DNA of 64,000 nt from Bacteroidota bacterium (GTDB lineage Bacteria; Bacteroidota; Bacteroidia; Chitinophagales; Chitinophagaceae). Position 1 is the stretch's first letter, and each line of letters starts with the position of its first letter. Location: assembly GCA_005798905.1 (NCBI GenBank), contig SYIK01000005.1, forward strand, positions 62,001 to 126,000, in the 5' to 3' direction. Both the position numbers and the translations under genes were made by a program. Shown piece by piece: positions 49,039 to 56,162 of the stretch. The notes below the pieces were generated by a model. The model was given only the letters and a program-made list of their open reading frames with translations, had not been told where the DNA came from and did no database searches.

Positions 49039-49965
49039 ATGACTAACTTTAAATTCAAGAATCAAACGGCATTTTACAGTGGAAAAGTAAGAGATGTTTA
49101 TACCATTTCCGATGAATGGTTGGTAATGATTGCTTCAAACAGAATTTCTGCCTTTGATGTTATTCTTCCAAAACAAATTCCATTTAAAGGCCAAGTTTTA
49201 AATCAAGTTGCAGCTTTTATGTTGGATGCATGTAAAGATATTTGTCCCAATTGGCTTACAAGTATTCCTGCACCCAATGTTGCTATTGGAAAAAAATGTA
49301 CTCCGTTTAAAATAGAAATGGTTGTAAGAGGAAATTTGGTTGGCCATGCATGGCGAACTTATAAATCAGGAAAGCGAGAATTGTGCGGAGCAACAATGCC
49401 AGAGAATTTAAAAGAAAATGATTTTTTCCCAACCCCTATTTTAACGCCTTCCACCAAAGCTGATGCCGGCCACGATGAAGATATTTCGATAGACGAAATT
49501 CTTTCAAAAAAATTAGCAACAAAAATTGAATTGGAAAAAATTTGTGAATATGCATTAGCACTTTTTGAAAGAGGTAAAAAAATTGCAACTGAAAAAGGAT
49601 TGGTACTTGCCGATACAAAATATGAGTTTGGAAAAATTGGTGATGAAATTTTATTGATGGACGAAGTACACACGCCCGATTCGTCGCGCTACTTTTTCGC
49701 AGATGGTTTTGAAACCCGCCAAATAACAGGTGAAAAACAAAAACAATTAAGCAAAGAATTTGTGAGAGAATGGCTTATCGAAAATAATTTTATGGGCAAA
49801 GCTGGTCAAACTGTTCCAGAAATGAGCGATTTGTGGATTGATACCATTTCAAAAAGATACATTGATTTATACGAAATATTGATTGGTAAAAAATTTGAAC
49901 CTCAATTGATTTCTGATGAAGAAATATTTTTAAAAATTGAAGCATCACTTAGTGAATTGCTTTAA
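49039..49965 (+). CDS. purC: Phosphoribosylaminoimidazole-succinocarboxamide synthase
   Basis: SAICAR synthetase of purine biosynthesis (308 aa). Motifs: [11 protein letters not shown] at the N-terminus, [24 protein letters not shown], and [10 protein letters not shown] followed by [13 protein letters not shown] with the catalytic acidic residues. The length is that of the longer, yeast-like form common in Bacteroidota. Its last 21 bases overlap the ancestral 3' end of the decayed trhO-like gene on the other strand. Confidence 0.96.
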
Positions 49966-50711
49966 TCTTTCTTTTGCTTTGTTGAAAACATTTCTTCCTT
50001 TATCCACTCCACTTCGTTTTGTTTTTTGTTCTTCAATTGGCAAATGAATAAAATCTTGACAAACAGTTGATCAAAAACAAAATTTTTACCGTGAAATTTA
50101 TTGGGTAAGTTTTTTTCTTTTACTTCATTAATAATGCCGCCTTCTAAGTGAAACACATTTGTAAATCCATTGTGCAGCATAAAAGCAGACACTTTTTCGC
50201 AGCGAATGCCACCTGTGCAATACATGATAATATTTTTTTTCTTGTCGTCCTTCAACATTTCCACTGCCATTGGTAATTGATCTCTAAAAGTATCGGAAGG
50301 AATTTCTAAGGCATTTTCAAAATGACCGACTTCATATTCGTAATGATTGCGAATGTCGATAACAATTGTTTTTTCATCGTTGCTCAACTTATTAAATTCA
50401 GCAGCATTTACATATTTTCCTTTTTGTTGCATACCGAAACTAGTGTCGCTAATTCCATCAACCACTATTTTTTTTCTCATTTTAATATCCAATACATAAA
50501 AACTTTTTCCATCATCATTAATGGCAGTATTAAATCGCAATGTTGATAAATTCAACAAAGAAGTTAAATGATTTTTTACGGAAGAAACGAATTTTTCGGG
50601 CACACTTATTTGCGCATTAATTCCTTCATGTGCTAAATAAATTCTACCAAAAACTTGCTATTTTTGTAAAGATTGATACAGGGTATTTCTGAAAATTGAG
50701 GAATTGTCAAT
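49945..50711 (-). pseudogene. trhO: Decayed rhodanese-family tRNA uridine hydroxylase (trhO/yceA-like)
   Basis: The surviving open part (stop 49962, GTG at 50603) holds the N-terminal acylphosphatase-like end ([15 protein letters not shown]) and the rhodanese domain with the intact active-site loop [11 protein letters not shown]. Three lesions are visible. (1) In frame upstream, homology continues ([30 protein letters not shown]) but is cut by TAG at 50658-50660, and no start is found. (2) After GKNFVFD the conserved Cys-rich zinc segment is missing. (3) The join (about 50066-50072) is out of frame, so the true C-terminus ([13 protein letters not shown] ...) is read in another frame to TGA at 49945-49947. 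The tRNA modification function is probably lost. Confidence 0.85.
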
Positions 50712-50797
50712 AAATAAATAATAAACTCCGGTTGCAGGCCGGACAAAATCCTAAATCGCTACAAATTTAACACAAAGAAATTTTACCTCAATTTATT

Positions 50798-53323
50798 TTA
50801 CAATGCAAGTGAAATAGACCTGCCGCTTGTGCTTAAACCTTTGCCAAACAAGCCCCCGAAGCCAAGTTTTATTCCGTAGGAATTTTCAACCAACGATTGC
50901 CGAGCTGTTACAAAATCGATTCGTAAAACTTTAAAAATATTTTCTATGCCGATAAAATAATCTTGATAAAAATTATTTTTATTTATAAAAAGTGCATTCG
51001 AACCAGCAACTAAATTCCATTTTAATTTATTAAATAATGGAATTTTATTGGTGAGCAATCCATTAAAATGATGTTCGAAATGAGCAAACAAAAACAGCGG
51101 CTCTTTTGTGCTGTATCGATAATAAGATGCTAACCAGAAACTATTTAAATAATGATGAATAATTTTAGTTTGACTTCCATAAAAATGTTGCAAATCAGGA
51201 ATTTCCACTTTTCTATTATTTAAAAATCCACTGGCACCAATTCGATAACGAAACTCTCCTCCTATTTTCAAATTCATTTCATCCGTCATTGTCAATTTCA
51301 ATTTGTCGAAATCAACATCGCTTCCAAAAATATTTTTTATTCCTTTTGTATAGATTAATTCAAACTTCGGCTGATTCGATGGAATTGGTATTTTATAATT
51401 AGGGAATTCTATAAAACGAATTCCAGGTTGGTAATTCAGTTTCAATTGAATGACAAATGCTTGATGCTTTTCAAATGAAAAAGCTGAAAGTTCTGGTGGA
51501 TGATTTGGTGTAAAATTTATACCTTTTTTAAAAAACGAAAAATCAGTAGTATTATTTAGTGGAATTCTGTTTTCAAATAATGCTTGCACATTCCACTTTA
51601 ATCTATTTTCGAATGCATTGTTGTATTCAATTTTTGCAAACTTGTTTTCATAAAGTTTACTATAATTTTCTTTTTCAAATAATGTATGCCGCGAATTGGA
51701 ATTTGCACTTATTGGATTTTCATCGTTGAACTGAACCACTCTTTTCCCTCCACTAAATTTTAAGTAGCGATTCTTATAATTGTATTTTCGAAAACTAAGA
51801 GTAAAATCAGCAAATGAATTGAAATGTTTGTTGCTCATTCCGTATCTATTGCTCCAATTTGTTTCAAAATTTATTTTTCCTTTTTTGGATTTTACTTCAA
51901 ATTTTTGTTCCAAATTAAAAACAACTCCTTCAACCGTATTGTATTCAATTTTTCTCAAAATAGGTTCGATAGAATAAGTAGCAACGCCACTTGTATCGTA
52001 AAATCGAAATTGATCACCGCTCCAAAAAATTCCTTTTAGTGTCATTTTTTTTTCGTGCTTATTTAACGAATCAATATTTCGAGAAGAAGTTGATTTGATT
52101 CGTTCGTCTCTAGAAACGCTGTCTTTAAAATTAAAATTTTCTTTCTCTTCTTTTTCTAATGGAATTGGTCTTAATTGATTCCAAATGGAAGTATCTTTTT
52201 TATTGTATATTGAATCATACTTCATAAACGTTCGATCGAATTTTCTTTTTTCAAATCCAGGATCTAAATTGTAATTAGAATAAACATTCAAAAAAATACC
52301 ATTCATCAAAAATCCAAATTGATTGGCGGTTAAATAAATTACTTGATCTTTTACTTGCCAAATTTCTGGCTCAATTGGAATATGAATTTGTGTAATTCGA
52401 AAACTATCCAACAATTCCAACGCATATTGTTTTGTAGCCAATAAATCTAAACTTGCAATTCGCCAATCGTCTTCGACAATTTCAATATAGCCAGAAAAAA
52501 GCGGTTCGTTTTTTCTTTTTGGTAAAATTTTTATTCGGCTAATCATTTTCCCATCTTCGAAAAAATTTCCTTCAAATTTATATTTATAAAAAGCAAAAGC
52601 GCCGTCAGCAATTGGAGAAATAAAACCCCGTGGGTTTAATGAATTATTGAAAATAGAAATATTATTTTCATAAATATTTGTAAAAAAAGGAAAGCTAAAA
52701 CCCTTGCCACCACCACTTTGGCGCGATGAAACAACTTCGTACTTTATTTTGTTTGGCTTTGCTTTGGAAACTTTTGTAATTGATTCGGATAAAAATAAAA
52801 TTCCTTTTCCATTAGAATCCAGCCCTTCTTTTACAAAATTATCTCTAACAATTTCTTTACCGAATATTTTTTGTGGAATCGTTAACGAACGGATTAAACC
52901 TTTTATATAAACTTCAACTGAAAATGAATCAATCTGCTCGTTATAAAATTTTCTTTTTTTAATTGCTTGTCGAATAATTTCACAAGCTGGATCTTCTCCT
53001 TTTACTACTACCAATTCACTTAAAATTAATTCGCGCAACTGTAATTGAAAATTTAAAACAATGTTTTCGACGGCAACAATAATTTGTTTTTCTTCTCTTG
53101 CATAACCAACGTGTTGACAAATGAAAGTGTACGATCCGGGAGATAATTCAATTAAATAATTGCCATCTTTATTTGCTGTAACGCCTTGTGTTGTTCCTTT
53201 TATCATTATAGAAGCAAATGGAAGAAATTCGCCTTTATTGTCCGTTACAACTCCAGAGATTTTTGCTGCAAAAACGTTTTGAAAGAATCCGAGAAAAAAA
53301 ATAAAAATGCAGATAGCTTTCAT
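50798..53323 (-). CDS. DUF5686 / CarboxypepD_reg outer-membrane protein
   Basis: Outer-membrane protein of 841 aa. Signal peptide at 1-19, carboxypeptidase-regulatory-like domain at about 22-95 (ISGVVTDNKGEFLPFASI), then the DUF5686 region (GEDPACEIIRQAIKKRKFYNEQ near 110) and a long barrel-like remainder ending GRSISLAL. It has no plug domain, so it is not a TonB receptor. Function is unknown; the family is broadly conserved in Bacteroidota and thought to be an outer-membrane barrel. It stands downstream of the small membrane protein on the same strand (39-base gap). Confidence 0.85.
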   Translation of the reverse strand: MKAICIFIFFLGFFQNVFAAKISGVVTDNKGEFLPFASIMIKGTTQGVTANKDGNYLIELSPGSYTFICQHVGYAREEKQIIVAVENIVLNFQLQLRELILSELVVVKGEDPACEIIRQAIKKRKFYNEQIDSFSVEVYIKGLIRSLTIPQKIFGKEIVRDNFVKEGLDSNGKGILFLSESITKVSKAKPNKIKYEVVSSRQSGGGKGFSFPFFTNIYENNISIFNNSLNPRGFISPIADGAFAFYKYKFEGNFFEDGKMISRIKILPKRKNEPLFSGYIEIVEDDWRIASLDLLATKQYALELLDSFRITQIHIPIEPEIWQVKDQVIYLTANQFGFLMNGIFLNVYSNYNLDPGFEKRKFDRTFMKYDSIYNKKDTSIWNQLRPIPLEKEEKENFNFKDSVSRDERIKSTSSRNIDSLNKHEKKMTLKGIFWSGDQFRFYDTSGVATYSIEPILRKIEYNTVEGVVFNLEQKFEVKSKKGKINFETNWSNRYGMSNKHFNSFADFTLSFRKYNYKNRYLKFSGGKRVVQFNDENPISANSNSRHTLFEKENYSKLYENKFAKIEYNNAFENRLKWNVQALFENRIPLNNTTDFSFFKKGINFTPNHPPELSAFSFEKHQAFVIQLKLNYQPGIRFIEFPNYKIPIPSNQPKFELIYTKGIKNIFGSDVDFDKLKLTMTDEMNLKIGGEFRYRIGASGFLNNRKVEIPDLQHFYGSQTKIIHHYLNSFWLASYYRYSTKEPLFLFAHFEHHFNGLLTNKIPLFNKLKWNLVAGSNALFINKNNFYQDYFIGIENIFKVLRIDFVTARQSLVENSYGIKLGFGGLFGKGLSTSGRSISLAL

Positions 53324-53362
53324 ACTTGAAACGAAAATAGGGCTTCAAAAAACAATTAAATG

Positions 53363-53716
53363 TTAATCTTTATTTGATTTTCTTAATAAAGATCCATTAA
53401 GTGCTGAAGTTCCAGAAAGTAAACCACCAACAAAAGCTGTAACAATAATTAATAAAATAGGAGAACCACTCAATGGAAGCAAGGTTGCAATTTTCGTAGA
53501 TAGAATGCTATTGTTTTTCCAATCAATCCAAAAAGATAAAACTCCCCAAAGTAAAAAGAGTCCTAAAAATCCGGATAAAAATGCTTTGAAAGGTTTTTGA
53601 TGAATAAACAATCCTACTAAAAAAGAAATTATAACAAATGACCACCAAAATTCAATATAAATTCCAGCGATAAAACTGAGAATAAATGTCAATAAAGTTG
53701 CAGTAATAATTTTCAT
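53363..53716 (-). CDS. Small integral membrane protein (117 aa)
   Basis: Hypothetical protein with four hydrophobic segments (about 3-20, 22-37, 49-65 and 88-106) and little polar sequence. I choose the ATG at 53716 (MKIITATLL); a TTG at 53740 would overlap the penicillin acylase gene by 14 bases. With the ATG, the gap to that gene is 10 bases, so the two are likely one transcript. The family is unrecognised, although an integral membrane protein next to a penicillin acylase is a pairing I recall from related genomes. Confidence 0.7.
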   Translation of the reverse strand: MKIITATLLTFILSFIAGIYIEFWWSFVIISFLVGLFIHQKPFKAFLSGFLGLFLLWGVLSFWIDWKNNSILSTKIATLLPLSGSPILLIIVTAFVGGLLSGTSALNGSLLRKSNKD

Positions 53717-53726
53717 ACGATTTTTG

Positions 53727-56162
53727 TTAGATTTTATCAAAACTAATTGTCCATTTTATTTCCGAACTTGTAATATCTTTTTCGTGCATAAACCAAAGCT
53801 TGTAATACAAGCCTGCCGTCCATTGATTAACAAATGAATCATAAAATTTACTTCCGGGATTTCCACTTTGTCCACCTGGATAAACTCCGTAAGCTTCAGT
53901 TTCACTGGTTAAATGGACAATCATTTTCCAACTTGGTCCGTGACTGTGTTGCGTTGCATTAATAATATGCTGACCGCCGCCTACCTGTAATCCAGCTCTT
54001 GCAAATGGCAGAATAGTTTTTAGTAAATGATACACTGTAGTGTTCTGAAATTTACTCCATGGTAATTTTTCTTCTTTTTCCAACTCTTGCAATTTGGTGG
54101 TTGATTTTTGCAATGCATCCGTTACCAGTTCTTGTAAATTTTCAATTCTTTCTGTGTTGATATTATCAACAAAAGAAAATGAGCTGTCTTTTAATAATGC
54201 TTCAATTAATGTTTTTTCACCAGGACGAAATTTCTTTGAATTGGCTTTCGAAAATTCATCATTCCAAACAAGCGCTTCCAAACTATCGAACCATATTTTA
54301 AAAACAGTTGGCCCAATTTCATCGTAATTATTTTTAAAATTCCACGCTTTTACAATCGTTAAAAATTGTTTTTCAGATTCATTCAATTTTGATTCATCCG
54401 TATTTTTTAATAAAAGAGGAAGAGCTGTTGCTGCAAATAAATTATAATTTTCATTGTGCAGTTGCATCATATTTTCCGGAGTAATATTTTGCATCGTATC
54501 TAATATTTTATTTATTAGATTACCACGATACAAATCATAATTTCCCGGAATAAAATAAGGATAAGTTTTATCAACCGGGCGCTGATTAGCACTACTCACA
54601 TAGCCTCTTTCCGGATTTACAGAATGCGGATTTTCCTCCTGCGGAATATATCCTTGCCACATATAAGTGCTGTCCCAACCAGGCATTACATAAATGCCTT
54701 GTCTTTCCCACAATGCTGGTAAACGTCCTTGTTGCCAAATGGCAATATCTCCTTTTTTAGATGCAAAAATCATGTTTTGGGCAGGACAAGTAAAGTGTTG
54801 AATTGCTTTGTAATAATCATCATAATTTTTAGCTCTATTTAATTCGTACCACATTAAAAATTCGTTGGAAGGATCGTGTGCTGCCCACCGAACTGCCAAG
54901 TTCTTCACATTTGCACTATCAGCAGGAAATCGTGCATCATACATTACAGGGCCAAAAACAGTGTAAGAAACCGTATCTAAAAAAGATTGTTTGCCTTTGA
55001 TGTTAATTTTTTCAATTCTTAAAGTAGCATCTTTCCATTCGTTATTAAACCAATATTGTTCTCGTTTATCTTCTTTAAATTTTATTTCATAAAAATCTTT
55101 CACATCTCTTTGAGAATTGGTAAACCCAAATGCAATACTATCATTGAATCCAATAATAATTCCAGGAACTCCGGGAAAACTAACCCCATACGCATTCATT
55201 GTAGAGGTGGTTATTTGCATTTCATACCAAATAGATGGTAAAGAAAGTTCCAGATGAGGATCGTTTGCTAAAATAGGAGCCCCACTTTTTGTTTTACTTC
55301 CAGCAACTGCCCAATTATTACTTCCATTAGCAGGATGAGGAAGATTGACATCGACTGGTTGAGAAGTAGATTTTGGATTCAAATAAAGTGAATCTATCGA
55401 GGTTGGAGGAATTGGAGTTATTCCTGGTTTAGAAAAAGGAGTTCCATTAAGAACAATTGCTAAAAGCGAATCGGGAACTTGTGGAAAAAGTAATTTGAGT
55501 TGTTCGTCATTAAAAAATCCTTTTGCAGCAGTCATTGGTAAATCTTCAACAAAGCCAGAAAGTACATCTGCCATTTGCTTCATAAATAAAGCAGTTTTTA
55601 AATTGGTCCACTTTTCGGGTTGATAACCGAGCAATTTATATTCGAGAGGAAGCTGTGCTTTTGTTAGTGAAGCGATATAATAATTTACACCTGCAGTATA
55701 TTGATCAAGATTTATTTTTGTAATTGAATTCGACTCTAATTCATTTAATAAATTTTCTGCGGCAAAAACCATTCCTAATCTCCGTTTTCCTCTATCAAAT
55801 TCAACTCCCTTTTCCCCAATTATTTCACTCACTCTTCCGGCAGCAGCATGGGTTTGAAACTCCATTTGCCATAATCGAAATTTAGCGTGAATATACCCTT
55901 GTACAAAATTGGCATCTCTATCATCAGCAGCAAAAATGTGCGGTACAAGCCGATCATCGAAATATACATTTGCCTTCCCTTGCAAATCCGAAAGTTTAAT
56001 ATTTTCAGAAAAATCTTGATCTACTGGTTCAGCATTTTGCCAAACACCATGTTGTGGGCTTAAAAATTTTCCCAATGCAGGTATTTTACCCCAAGAATTA
56101 TTTAAAAAATAAGTAAGTCCGATTGTTACAATTGATGTAAGTAAAAAAGATAAAATTTTCAT
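53727..56162 (-). CDS. Penicillin acylase family (Ntn) hydrolase
   Basis: N-terminal-nucleophile amidase of 811 aa, made as a precursor that self-cleaves into alpha and beta chains. Signal or membrane segment at 5-21. The nucleophile is Ser281 in NGSNNWAVAGSKT, where the beta chain would begin. Other marks are HLELSLPSIWYE, GFTNSQRDVKDFYEI and the Asn region YVSSANQRP. Family substrates include penicillins, acyl-homoserine lactones and N-acyl amides; which one applies is unknown. Cleavage sites flank a linker of about 240-280. Confidence 0.92.
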   Translation of the reverse strand: MKILSFLLTSIVTIGLTYFLNNSWGKIPALGKFLSPQHGVWQNAEPVDQDFSENIKLSDLQGKANVYFDDRLVPHIFAADDRDANFVQGYIHAKFRLWQMEFQTHAAAGRVSEIIGEKGVEFDRGKRRLGMVFAAENLLNELESNSITKINLDQYTAGVNYYIASLTKAQLPLEYKLLGYQPEKWTNLKTALFMKQMADVLSGFVEDLPMTAAKGFFNDEQLKLLFPQVPDSLLAIVLNGTPFSKPGITPIPPTSIDSLYLNPKSTSQPVDVNLPHPANGSNNWAVAGSKTKSGAPILANDPHLELSLPSIWYEMQITTSTMNAYGVSFPGVPGIIIGFNDSIAFGFTNSQRDVKDFYEIKFKEDKREQYWFNNEWKDATLRIEKINIKGKQSFLDTVSYTVFGPVMYDARFPADSANVKNLAVRWAAHDPSNEFLMWYELNRAKNYDDYYKAIQHFTCPAQNMIFASKKGDIAIWQQGRLPALWERQGIYVMPGWDSTYMWQGYIPQEENPHSVNPERGYVSSANQRPVDKTYPYFIPGNYDLYRGNLINKILDTMQNITPENMMQLHNENYNLFAATALPLLLKNTDESKLNESEKQFLTIVKAWNFKNNYDEIGPTVFKIWFDSLEALVWNDEFSKANSKKFRPGEKTLIEALLKDSSFSFVDNINTERIENLQELVTDALQKSTTKLQELEKEEKLPWSKFQNTTVYHLLKTILPFARAGLQVGGGQHIINATQHSHGPSWKMIVHLTSETEAYGVYPGGQSGNPGSKFYDSFVNQWTAGLYYKLWFMHEKDITSSEIKWTISFDKI

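Follow-up and report, generated by a model that had tools for sequence, protein, structure and literature searches.

In operators of the thrS type, the leader of an enzyme's mRNA imitates the anticodon arm of the cognate tRNA. An anticodon mimic has also been reported in the mRNA of a yeast synthetase (PMC6542539). For the wobble uridine of tRNA, U34, Sakai et al. (2019; PMC6599085) describe two redundant ways of making 5-hydroxyuridine, one by TrhO (YceA/YbfQ), which uses oxygen, and the other by TrhP (YegQ; YrrO/YrrN in B. subtilis), a hydroxylase of the U32 family, which uses prephenate. The same report adds that E. coli without both TrhO and TrhP is temperature-sensitive, that residues E162, C170, and C177 of E. 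coli TrhP are essential, and that E. coli TrhO binds tRNA-Ala1 and not tRNA-Leu3.

In the window, by which we mean the whole stretch of 64,000 nucleotides that was analysed, the minus strand at 49945-50751 carries a broken trhO. We consider it likely that this is a recently inactivated single-copy trhO pseudogene of a small-genome bacterium whose family, to judge from named relatives, is Chitinophagaceae-like, in a genome where a TrhP-like protein of the U32 family would act as the replacement, and that the locus has kept half of a conserved leader RNA that, with less confidence, would control translation. The parts of the gene are as follows (P1 and P3 are helices of the leader, described below).

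50067 to 50720, minus strand: trhO remnant, homologous to residues 32-252 of an intact TrhO of 342 aa; it carries the rhodanese CTGGIR motif
50718 to 50726, minus strand: junction left by a net loss of about 120 bp, in which P3 disappeared together with the 3' strand of P1, the start codon, and about 30 codons
50658 to 50660, minus strand: in-frame TAG (50660-50658) inside recognisable homology
50126 to 50127, minus strand: site of a 9-bp in-frame deletion (three residues), from DNA alignment against all six relatives aligned
50061 to 50067, minus strand: junction of a net 154-bp deletion, which removed the Cys-rich segment and shifted the frame, from tblastn and DNA alignment
49945 to 50061, minus strand: original C-terminus, displaced into another frame, with its stop codon TGA at 49947-49945

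When the intact 342-aa TrhO of locus L077 was used as a tblastn query, residues 32-252 aligned with a single frame of the remnant, straight through the TAG, at 66% identity over 221 residues (E 8e-107 in a one-sequence database), and residues 306-341 aligned with another frame at 78% identity. The truncated frame scored 191.2 bits against the NCBIfam TrhO equivalog, above the cut-off of 170; this score and the 66% identity over 221 residues indicate that the homology is not due to chance. Further, the remnant shares with TrhO both the N-terminal domain (PF17773, 65.2 bits, with one TAG within the match) and the rhodanese domain (PF00581, 61.9 bits), in which CTGGIR, the CxGGxR loop, is intact. 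Unlike TrhO, the remnant is a pseudogene: it has no start codon, an internal stop, an out-of-frame tail, and a deleted Cys-rich segment, and the TAG, the lost start codon, and the frameshift leave it with no uninterrupted frame.

Alignment of the DNA with that of L077 and five congeners revealed four lesions in all, namely the deletion of about 120 bp, the TAG, the 9-bp deletion, and the 154-bp deletion. The first of these is placed by the alignment and by the tblastn match, which begins at residue 32; its size was worked out as 123 bp from the length of the leader at locus L118 (36 nt from P2 to ATG). The TAG lies in the frame that ends at 'GKNFVFDQ' in the translation of the remnant and was confirmed by alignment with the intact homologue. 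The 154-bp deletion took away the Cys-rich C-terminal segment that the six aligned relatives have, and the true C-terminus, as had been proposed, sits in another frame, where it overlaps a plus-strand frame that ends at 49965 and had been called purC. The original prediction of a trhO in decay was thus sound in substance and understated the damage. It had listed the TAG, the loss of the Cys-rich segment, and the frameshift as three separate faults; all three are there, but the last two are one event, the 154-bp deletion, and two further lesions, the loss of the start codon with about 30 codons and the 9-bp deletion at 50127/50126, had been missed.

It is highly improbable that the lesions are faults of assembly or sequencing in a gene that the organism keeps intact. 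Gaps in the assembly are probable, because the genome is split into 19 contigs and no tRNA was detected for some amino acids: among 28 tRNA matches, those for Val, Ile(GAU), Asn, Asp, Ala(UGC), and Pro(UGG) were missing, probably through gaps around rRNA operons and tRNA clusters. Against such faults, however, four lesions of differing kinds (two deletions of more than 100 bp, a 9-bp deletion, and a nonsense codon) lie in one gene, and the flanking frames read through, the window being otherwise coding-dense (90.6% in ORFs of at least 100 aa by greedy picking, with five gaps of more than 350 bp).

No second copy takes the place of the gene, as had been thought possible: in the 1.86-Mb genome, which is 99.68% complete, a PF17773 search returned the remnant as its single match. 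Of 58 relatives, 53 have a PF17773 match, in no case with a stop inside it, and full-length trhO is open in all five congeners. The short form, which the original prediction had named as grounds for rejecting decay if relatives were to share it, was looked for in these five and not found.

To gauge the age of the damage, we considered positions at least 97% identical among 97 intact homologues, each at least 60% identical to L077. Only 4 of 101 such near-invariant positions are changed in the remnant, all conservatively; among the 97 intact homologues the median number of changed columns is 0 and the worst case is 5 of 102. Because so few positions have drifted, the decay looks recent. Either the damage is young or the remaining frame is still constrained, and we prefer the former since no route to translation is visible. 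The original prediction had supposed that the shortened 213-aa protein, read from GTG 50603, might still be made and act as a plain rhodanese. The intact domain and CTGGIR loop and the small number of changed positions speak for this, but a young pseudogene would show equal conservation, the short form occurs in none of the five congeners, and the 3' half of the leader is gone. The start codon and the N-terminal part have been lost, which makes a working short rhodanese unlikely, and we give the idea hardly any credence; the 213-aa frame is merely the stretch left between lesions. We return, then, to a recent pseudogene, real and ordinary in kind.

Two observations on other loci are recorded here in their own right. 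At locus L217 (G417:C327), trhO stands behind a well-scoring leader and is split into two frames near residue 150, which is either another decaying copy or an error in this draft genome of the family. At L077, the gene immediately upstream of trhO encodes a membrane-protein-like product of 115 aa; in the window, within 50798-53740, a look-alike of this gene, judged by eye, occupies 53363-53740, with an 841-aa gene between it and trhO.

The original prediction had advised looking in the rest of the genome for an intact trhO or the alternative trhP. No intact trhO is present; there is one U32 protein (233 bits to PF01136), which scores 182.6 bits with the NCBIfam TrhP model, far below its cut-off of 534, and 172.5 bits with the UbiU model. 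Four of the five congeners gave no PF01136 match and the fifth a weak one, two of the five genomes being 91% complete. The protein shares with E. coli TrhP the equivalents of the three essential residues, E162, C170, and C177, and a chorismate mutase domain is present. On the other hand, it is only about 26% identical to E. coli TrhP over the aligned parts, compared with 32.5% for UbiU and 30% for RlhA, a comparison made with E. coli proteins alone. As far as sequence goes, we therefore call it TrhP-like; it may belong to another U32 subfamily, because it lies below the TrhP cut-off and, in a tree with long branches, does not group with E. coli TrhP. The available text of PMC6599085 assigns no function to this subfamily.

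In a comparison across the order that took in 395 other genomes, a U32 protein occurs in 25 of 36 trhO-less genomes versus 60 of 359 TrhO-bearing ones (Fisher p 8e-11), and the short form alone in 24 of 36 versus 48 of 359 (p 1e-11), in a cross-table made by hand from listings and counting related genomes as independent. The 25 trhO-less genomes with a U32 protein are spread over six families, and some absences may be draft gaps; the other 11 of the 36 had no U32 match, six of them being 82-93% complete. In a tree of 18 of the 33 U32 loci (L032 and L172 left out, and 3 of 16 long forms included), the protein falls into a nine-row clade of short forms from the order (support 80/89), together with those of trhO-less G024, G296, G143, and G079 and of trhO-bearing G029, G229, G173, and G265. 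Within it, the protein groups with those of trhO-less G143 and G079 and trhO-bearing G265 (support 97/95). On long branches, E. coli TrhP pairs with UbiU outside this clade, and E. coli RlhA clusters with three long U32 forms from a single family (support 96/95). These long forms come from family f18 of the order, whose loci L152-L167 encode long U32 proteins of about 630 aa; the three placed in the tree out of 16 suggest that this family makes 5-hydroxycytidine in 23S rRNA.

Since trhO-less genomes carry a U32 protein more often, 5-hydroxyuridine was probably kept despite the loss of trhO. What would have made the loss tolerable is a TrhP-like protein of the U32 family, which would form 5-hydroxyuridine at position 34 of tRNA with no need of oxygen. 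The original prediction had named loss of the modification as one outcome; with a U32 protein in this genome that is missing from four of five congeners, this is not the likeliest one. That 5-hydroxyuridine at position 34 was simply lost as the genome shrank, the U32 protein hydroxylating rRNA or quinones instead, strikes us as rather unlikely. The genome is indeed the smallest of the six of its genus in our sample (1.86 versus 2.2-5.0 Mb), and the U32 protein, under the TrhP cut-off, scores about equally to UbiU. Yet short-type U32 proteins are over-represented in trhO-less genomes of six families, the congeners that keep trhO have no U32 protein, one weak match excepted, and the three RlhA-like long forms tested form a separate clade. 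Replacement by the U32 protein remains the reading we favour. Absence of oxygen is not an obvious cause of the loss of trhO, as the genome has three matches to the COX1 family.

Upstream of the coding remnant, the first deletion has left the following features in place.

50727 to 50751, minus strand: remnant of the trhO leader RNA, within a match to covariance model R1 at 50764-50687 (40.1 bits, E 2.9e-6 in the window)
50751 to 50745, minus strand: 5' strand of P1, in the leader remnant
50743 to 50739 with 50731 to 50727, minus strand: P2 hairpin, in the leader remnant
50738 to 50732, minus strand: P2 loop, CCTGCAA, in the leader remnant
50762 to 50769, minus strand: retained promoter-like sequence, TAAATTTG, upstream of the remnant

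Alignment of the 5' ends showed that this stretch is conserved in the leaders of intact trhO genes. In many intact trhO genes of the family, the leader consists of a stem beside the ATG (P1), a hairpin with a CCUGCAA loop (P2), and a variable hairpin (P3). Many relatives have TATCTTTG at the position that matches TAAATTTG of the remnant. The sequence TAAATTTG is one that we take to be a promoter of the Bacteroidota type (consensus TAnnTTTG).

RNAalifold, given 18 leaders of the nearest type, found unaided a three-way junction of P1 (GAAUUUU with AAAAUUC), P2 (5 bp and a 7-nt loop), and P3, with 11 of 21 predicted pairs compensatory. In the named structure, 97.4% of cells in these 18 leaders are paired and 11 of 17 pairs show two-sided changes. 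Covariation was 0.454 compared with 0.206 after shuffling, a value that none of 500 shuffles reached, and fell to 0.167 and 0.124 when the structure was slid by one position. Each pair of P2 and P3 is changed on both sides somewhere among the 18 leaders; five of the seven pairs of P1 never vary, and one shows a two-sided change. RNAalifold also recovered P1 and P2 from 16 short leaders of other types (9 of 12 pairs compensatory). From 25 leaders of types B and C it returned an extended P2 and another hairpin (8 of 12 pairs compensatory). P1 was not predicted in these 25, where part of its 5' strand extends P2; complementary P1 strands are nevertheless visible by eye. A joint alignment (A1) of short and long leaders was set aside, as it misplaced the 3' strand of P1. 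More distant leaders (L023, L026, L016, L100, and L121) appear by eye to have an extra hairpin and thus a four-helix junction. Single sequences fold only modestly better than their shuffles (z -0.8 to -3.2, n = 7), and the best fold is without the 7-nt loop of P2 in two of the seven (L038 and L066), so the case for the leader rests on covariation and position. With covarying helices at a conserved position before one gene, the leader has the features of a structured leader RNA whose predicted role is cis-regulation.

The model R1 was built from the 18 nearest-type leaders. It has a sense-strand match at 76 of 89 chosen trhO loci (88 of the 110 trhO upstream regions extracted, plus the locus in the window), of which 18 are training rows; this is not a frequency, as duplicates and most loci with no visible leader had been left out. 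The 76 are what remains of 94 matches after 16 that were antisense at the same place and two elsewhere were dropped. When 59 whole genomes were searched, all 16 matches with E < 0.02 were at trhO, five of them training rows; of 11 weaker ones (E 0.02-1), four were at trhO, one was antisense there, and six were elsewhere, and 35 of the 59 genomes had no match. Across the family, 46 of 195 genomes have a match at E <= 0.01 and 149 have none, and all 30 best-match loci examined from the 46 hold trhO. In the genome under study, the truncated leader at 50764-50687 is itself the best R1 match. A second match (G000:C8:170483-170557, E 0.025) is antisense within a coding frame (L195) and was taken as chance. 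Rfam gave no match at the leader in window 50400-51000 or at six loci with intact trhO. The leader is thus a structured RNA with no match in Rfam, tied to one gene in the genomes searched. Literature searches on TrhO, rhodaneses, anticodon mimics, and cis-regulatory RNA of Chitinophagaceae turned up no description of it; large surveys of structured RNAs, of which Weinberg 2017 is reportedly one for bacteria, may contain it.

Alternatively, a transcription factor might recognise the inverted repeats as an operator in the DNA. P2 forms a short palindrome around 7 central base pairs, and 16 of the 94 model matches are antisense at the same place, but the arms vary and yet stay complementary, in P2 and P3 above all, which a protein that reads sequence is not expected to tolerate, and the element lies downstream of the promoter-like TATCTTTG. 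We regard an operator as very unlikely and continue with the leader as RNA. Because P1 ends 4-8 nt before the ATG (16 near-type leaders), we infer, with less confidence than for the replacement of trhO, that the leader controls translation of trhO in the relatives; and as P1 would hold the nucleotides immediately ahead of the start codon in a helix, its formation would be expected to lower translation.

The loop of P2 gives a hint of what might be sensed. Among the 76 sense matches, it reads CCUGCAA in 50, a count that is biased by R1 towards its training loop. The tRNA-Ala(UGC) loops of relatives read CUUGCAC (seven genes), UUUGCAA (three), and CUUGCAA (one), the pattern having been found in 9 of 39 genomes, with the genome under study and its congeners not among them. 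From CCUGCAA, one of these 11 loops differs at one position and ten at two, with position 33 always among them; CUUGCAA differs at position 33 alone. The rarer leader loops UCUGUAA (three) and CCUGUAA (two) differ at one and two positions, respectively, from the genome's own tRNA-Thr(UGU) loop, UUUGUAA. The leader resembles operators of the thrS type: it has a stem with an anticodon-like 7-nt loop, and the enzyme encoded downstream acts on the anticodon concerned; unlike in those operators, the enzyme is a tRNA-modifying hydroxylase, and binding and regulation are putative. The likeness of the loops, together with the binding of tRNA-Ala1 by E. coli TrhO, tentatively suggests autoregulation by substrate mimicry. 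In such a scheme, P2, resembling the anticodon arm of tRNA-Ala(UGC), would let TrhO or a related factor sense the amount of enzyme or substrate: free TrhO would bind P2, and the stem next to the start codon would then shut off translation. Two points count against it. First, U33 is kept in none of the 74 seven-nucleotide loops (two of the 76, of other length, were left out), position 33 being C or A. Second, 12 of the 74 have G or C at position 34. That a new leader RNA subjects trhO to feedback, with P2 mimicking the anticodon arm of tRNA-Ala(UGC), is therefore possible rather than probable.

It is likewise conceivable, though doubtful, that the leader is a metabolite riboswitch or an element responsive to temperature or oxygen and not a substrate mimic. 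The P2 loop without U33 would fit, and an A+U-rich stem that closes next to the start codon in the 5' UTR is a usual anatomy of such switches. Against this, what is conserved at the core is a hairpin whose 7-nt loop is close to the one in tRNA-Ala(UGC), and the good matches sit upstream of an enzyme that acts on such loops.

The pseudogene offers a fresh case in which one of two redundant pathways of wobble-uridine hydroxylation has been lost where a member of the other enzyme family is present, and through it one could test whether TrhO and this U32 subfamily are interchangeable. The leader RNA is what deserves further study. If its hairpin is a true anticodon mimic, a tRNA-modifying enzyme would be governed by anticodon mimicry, and this would show a means by which a cell gauges its need for a tRNA modification.
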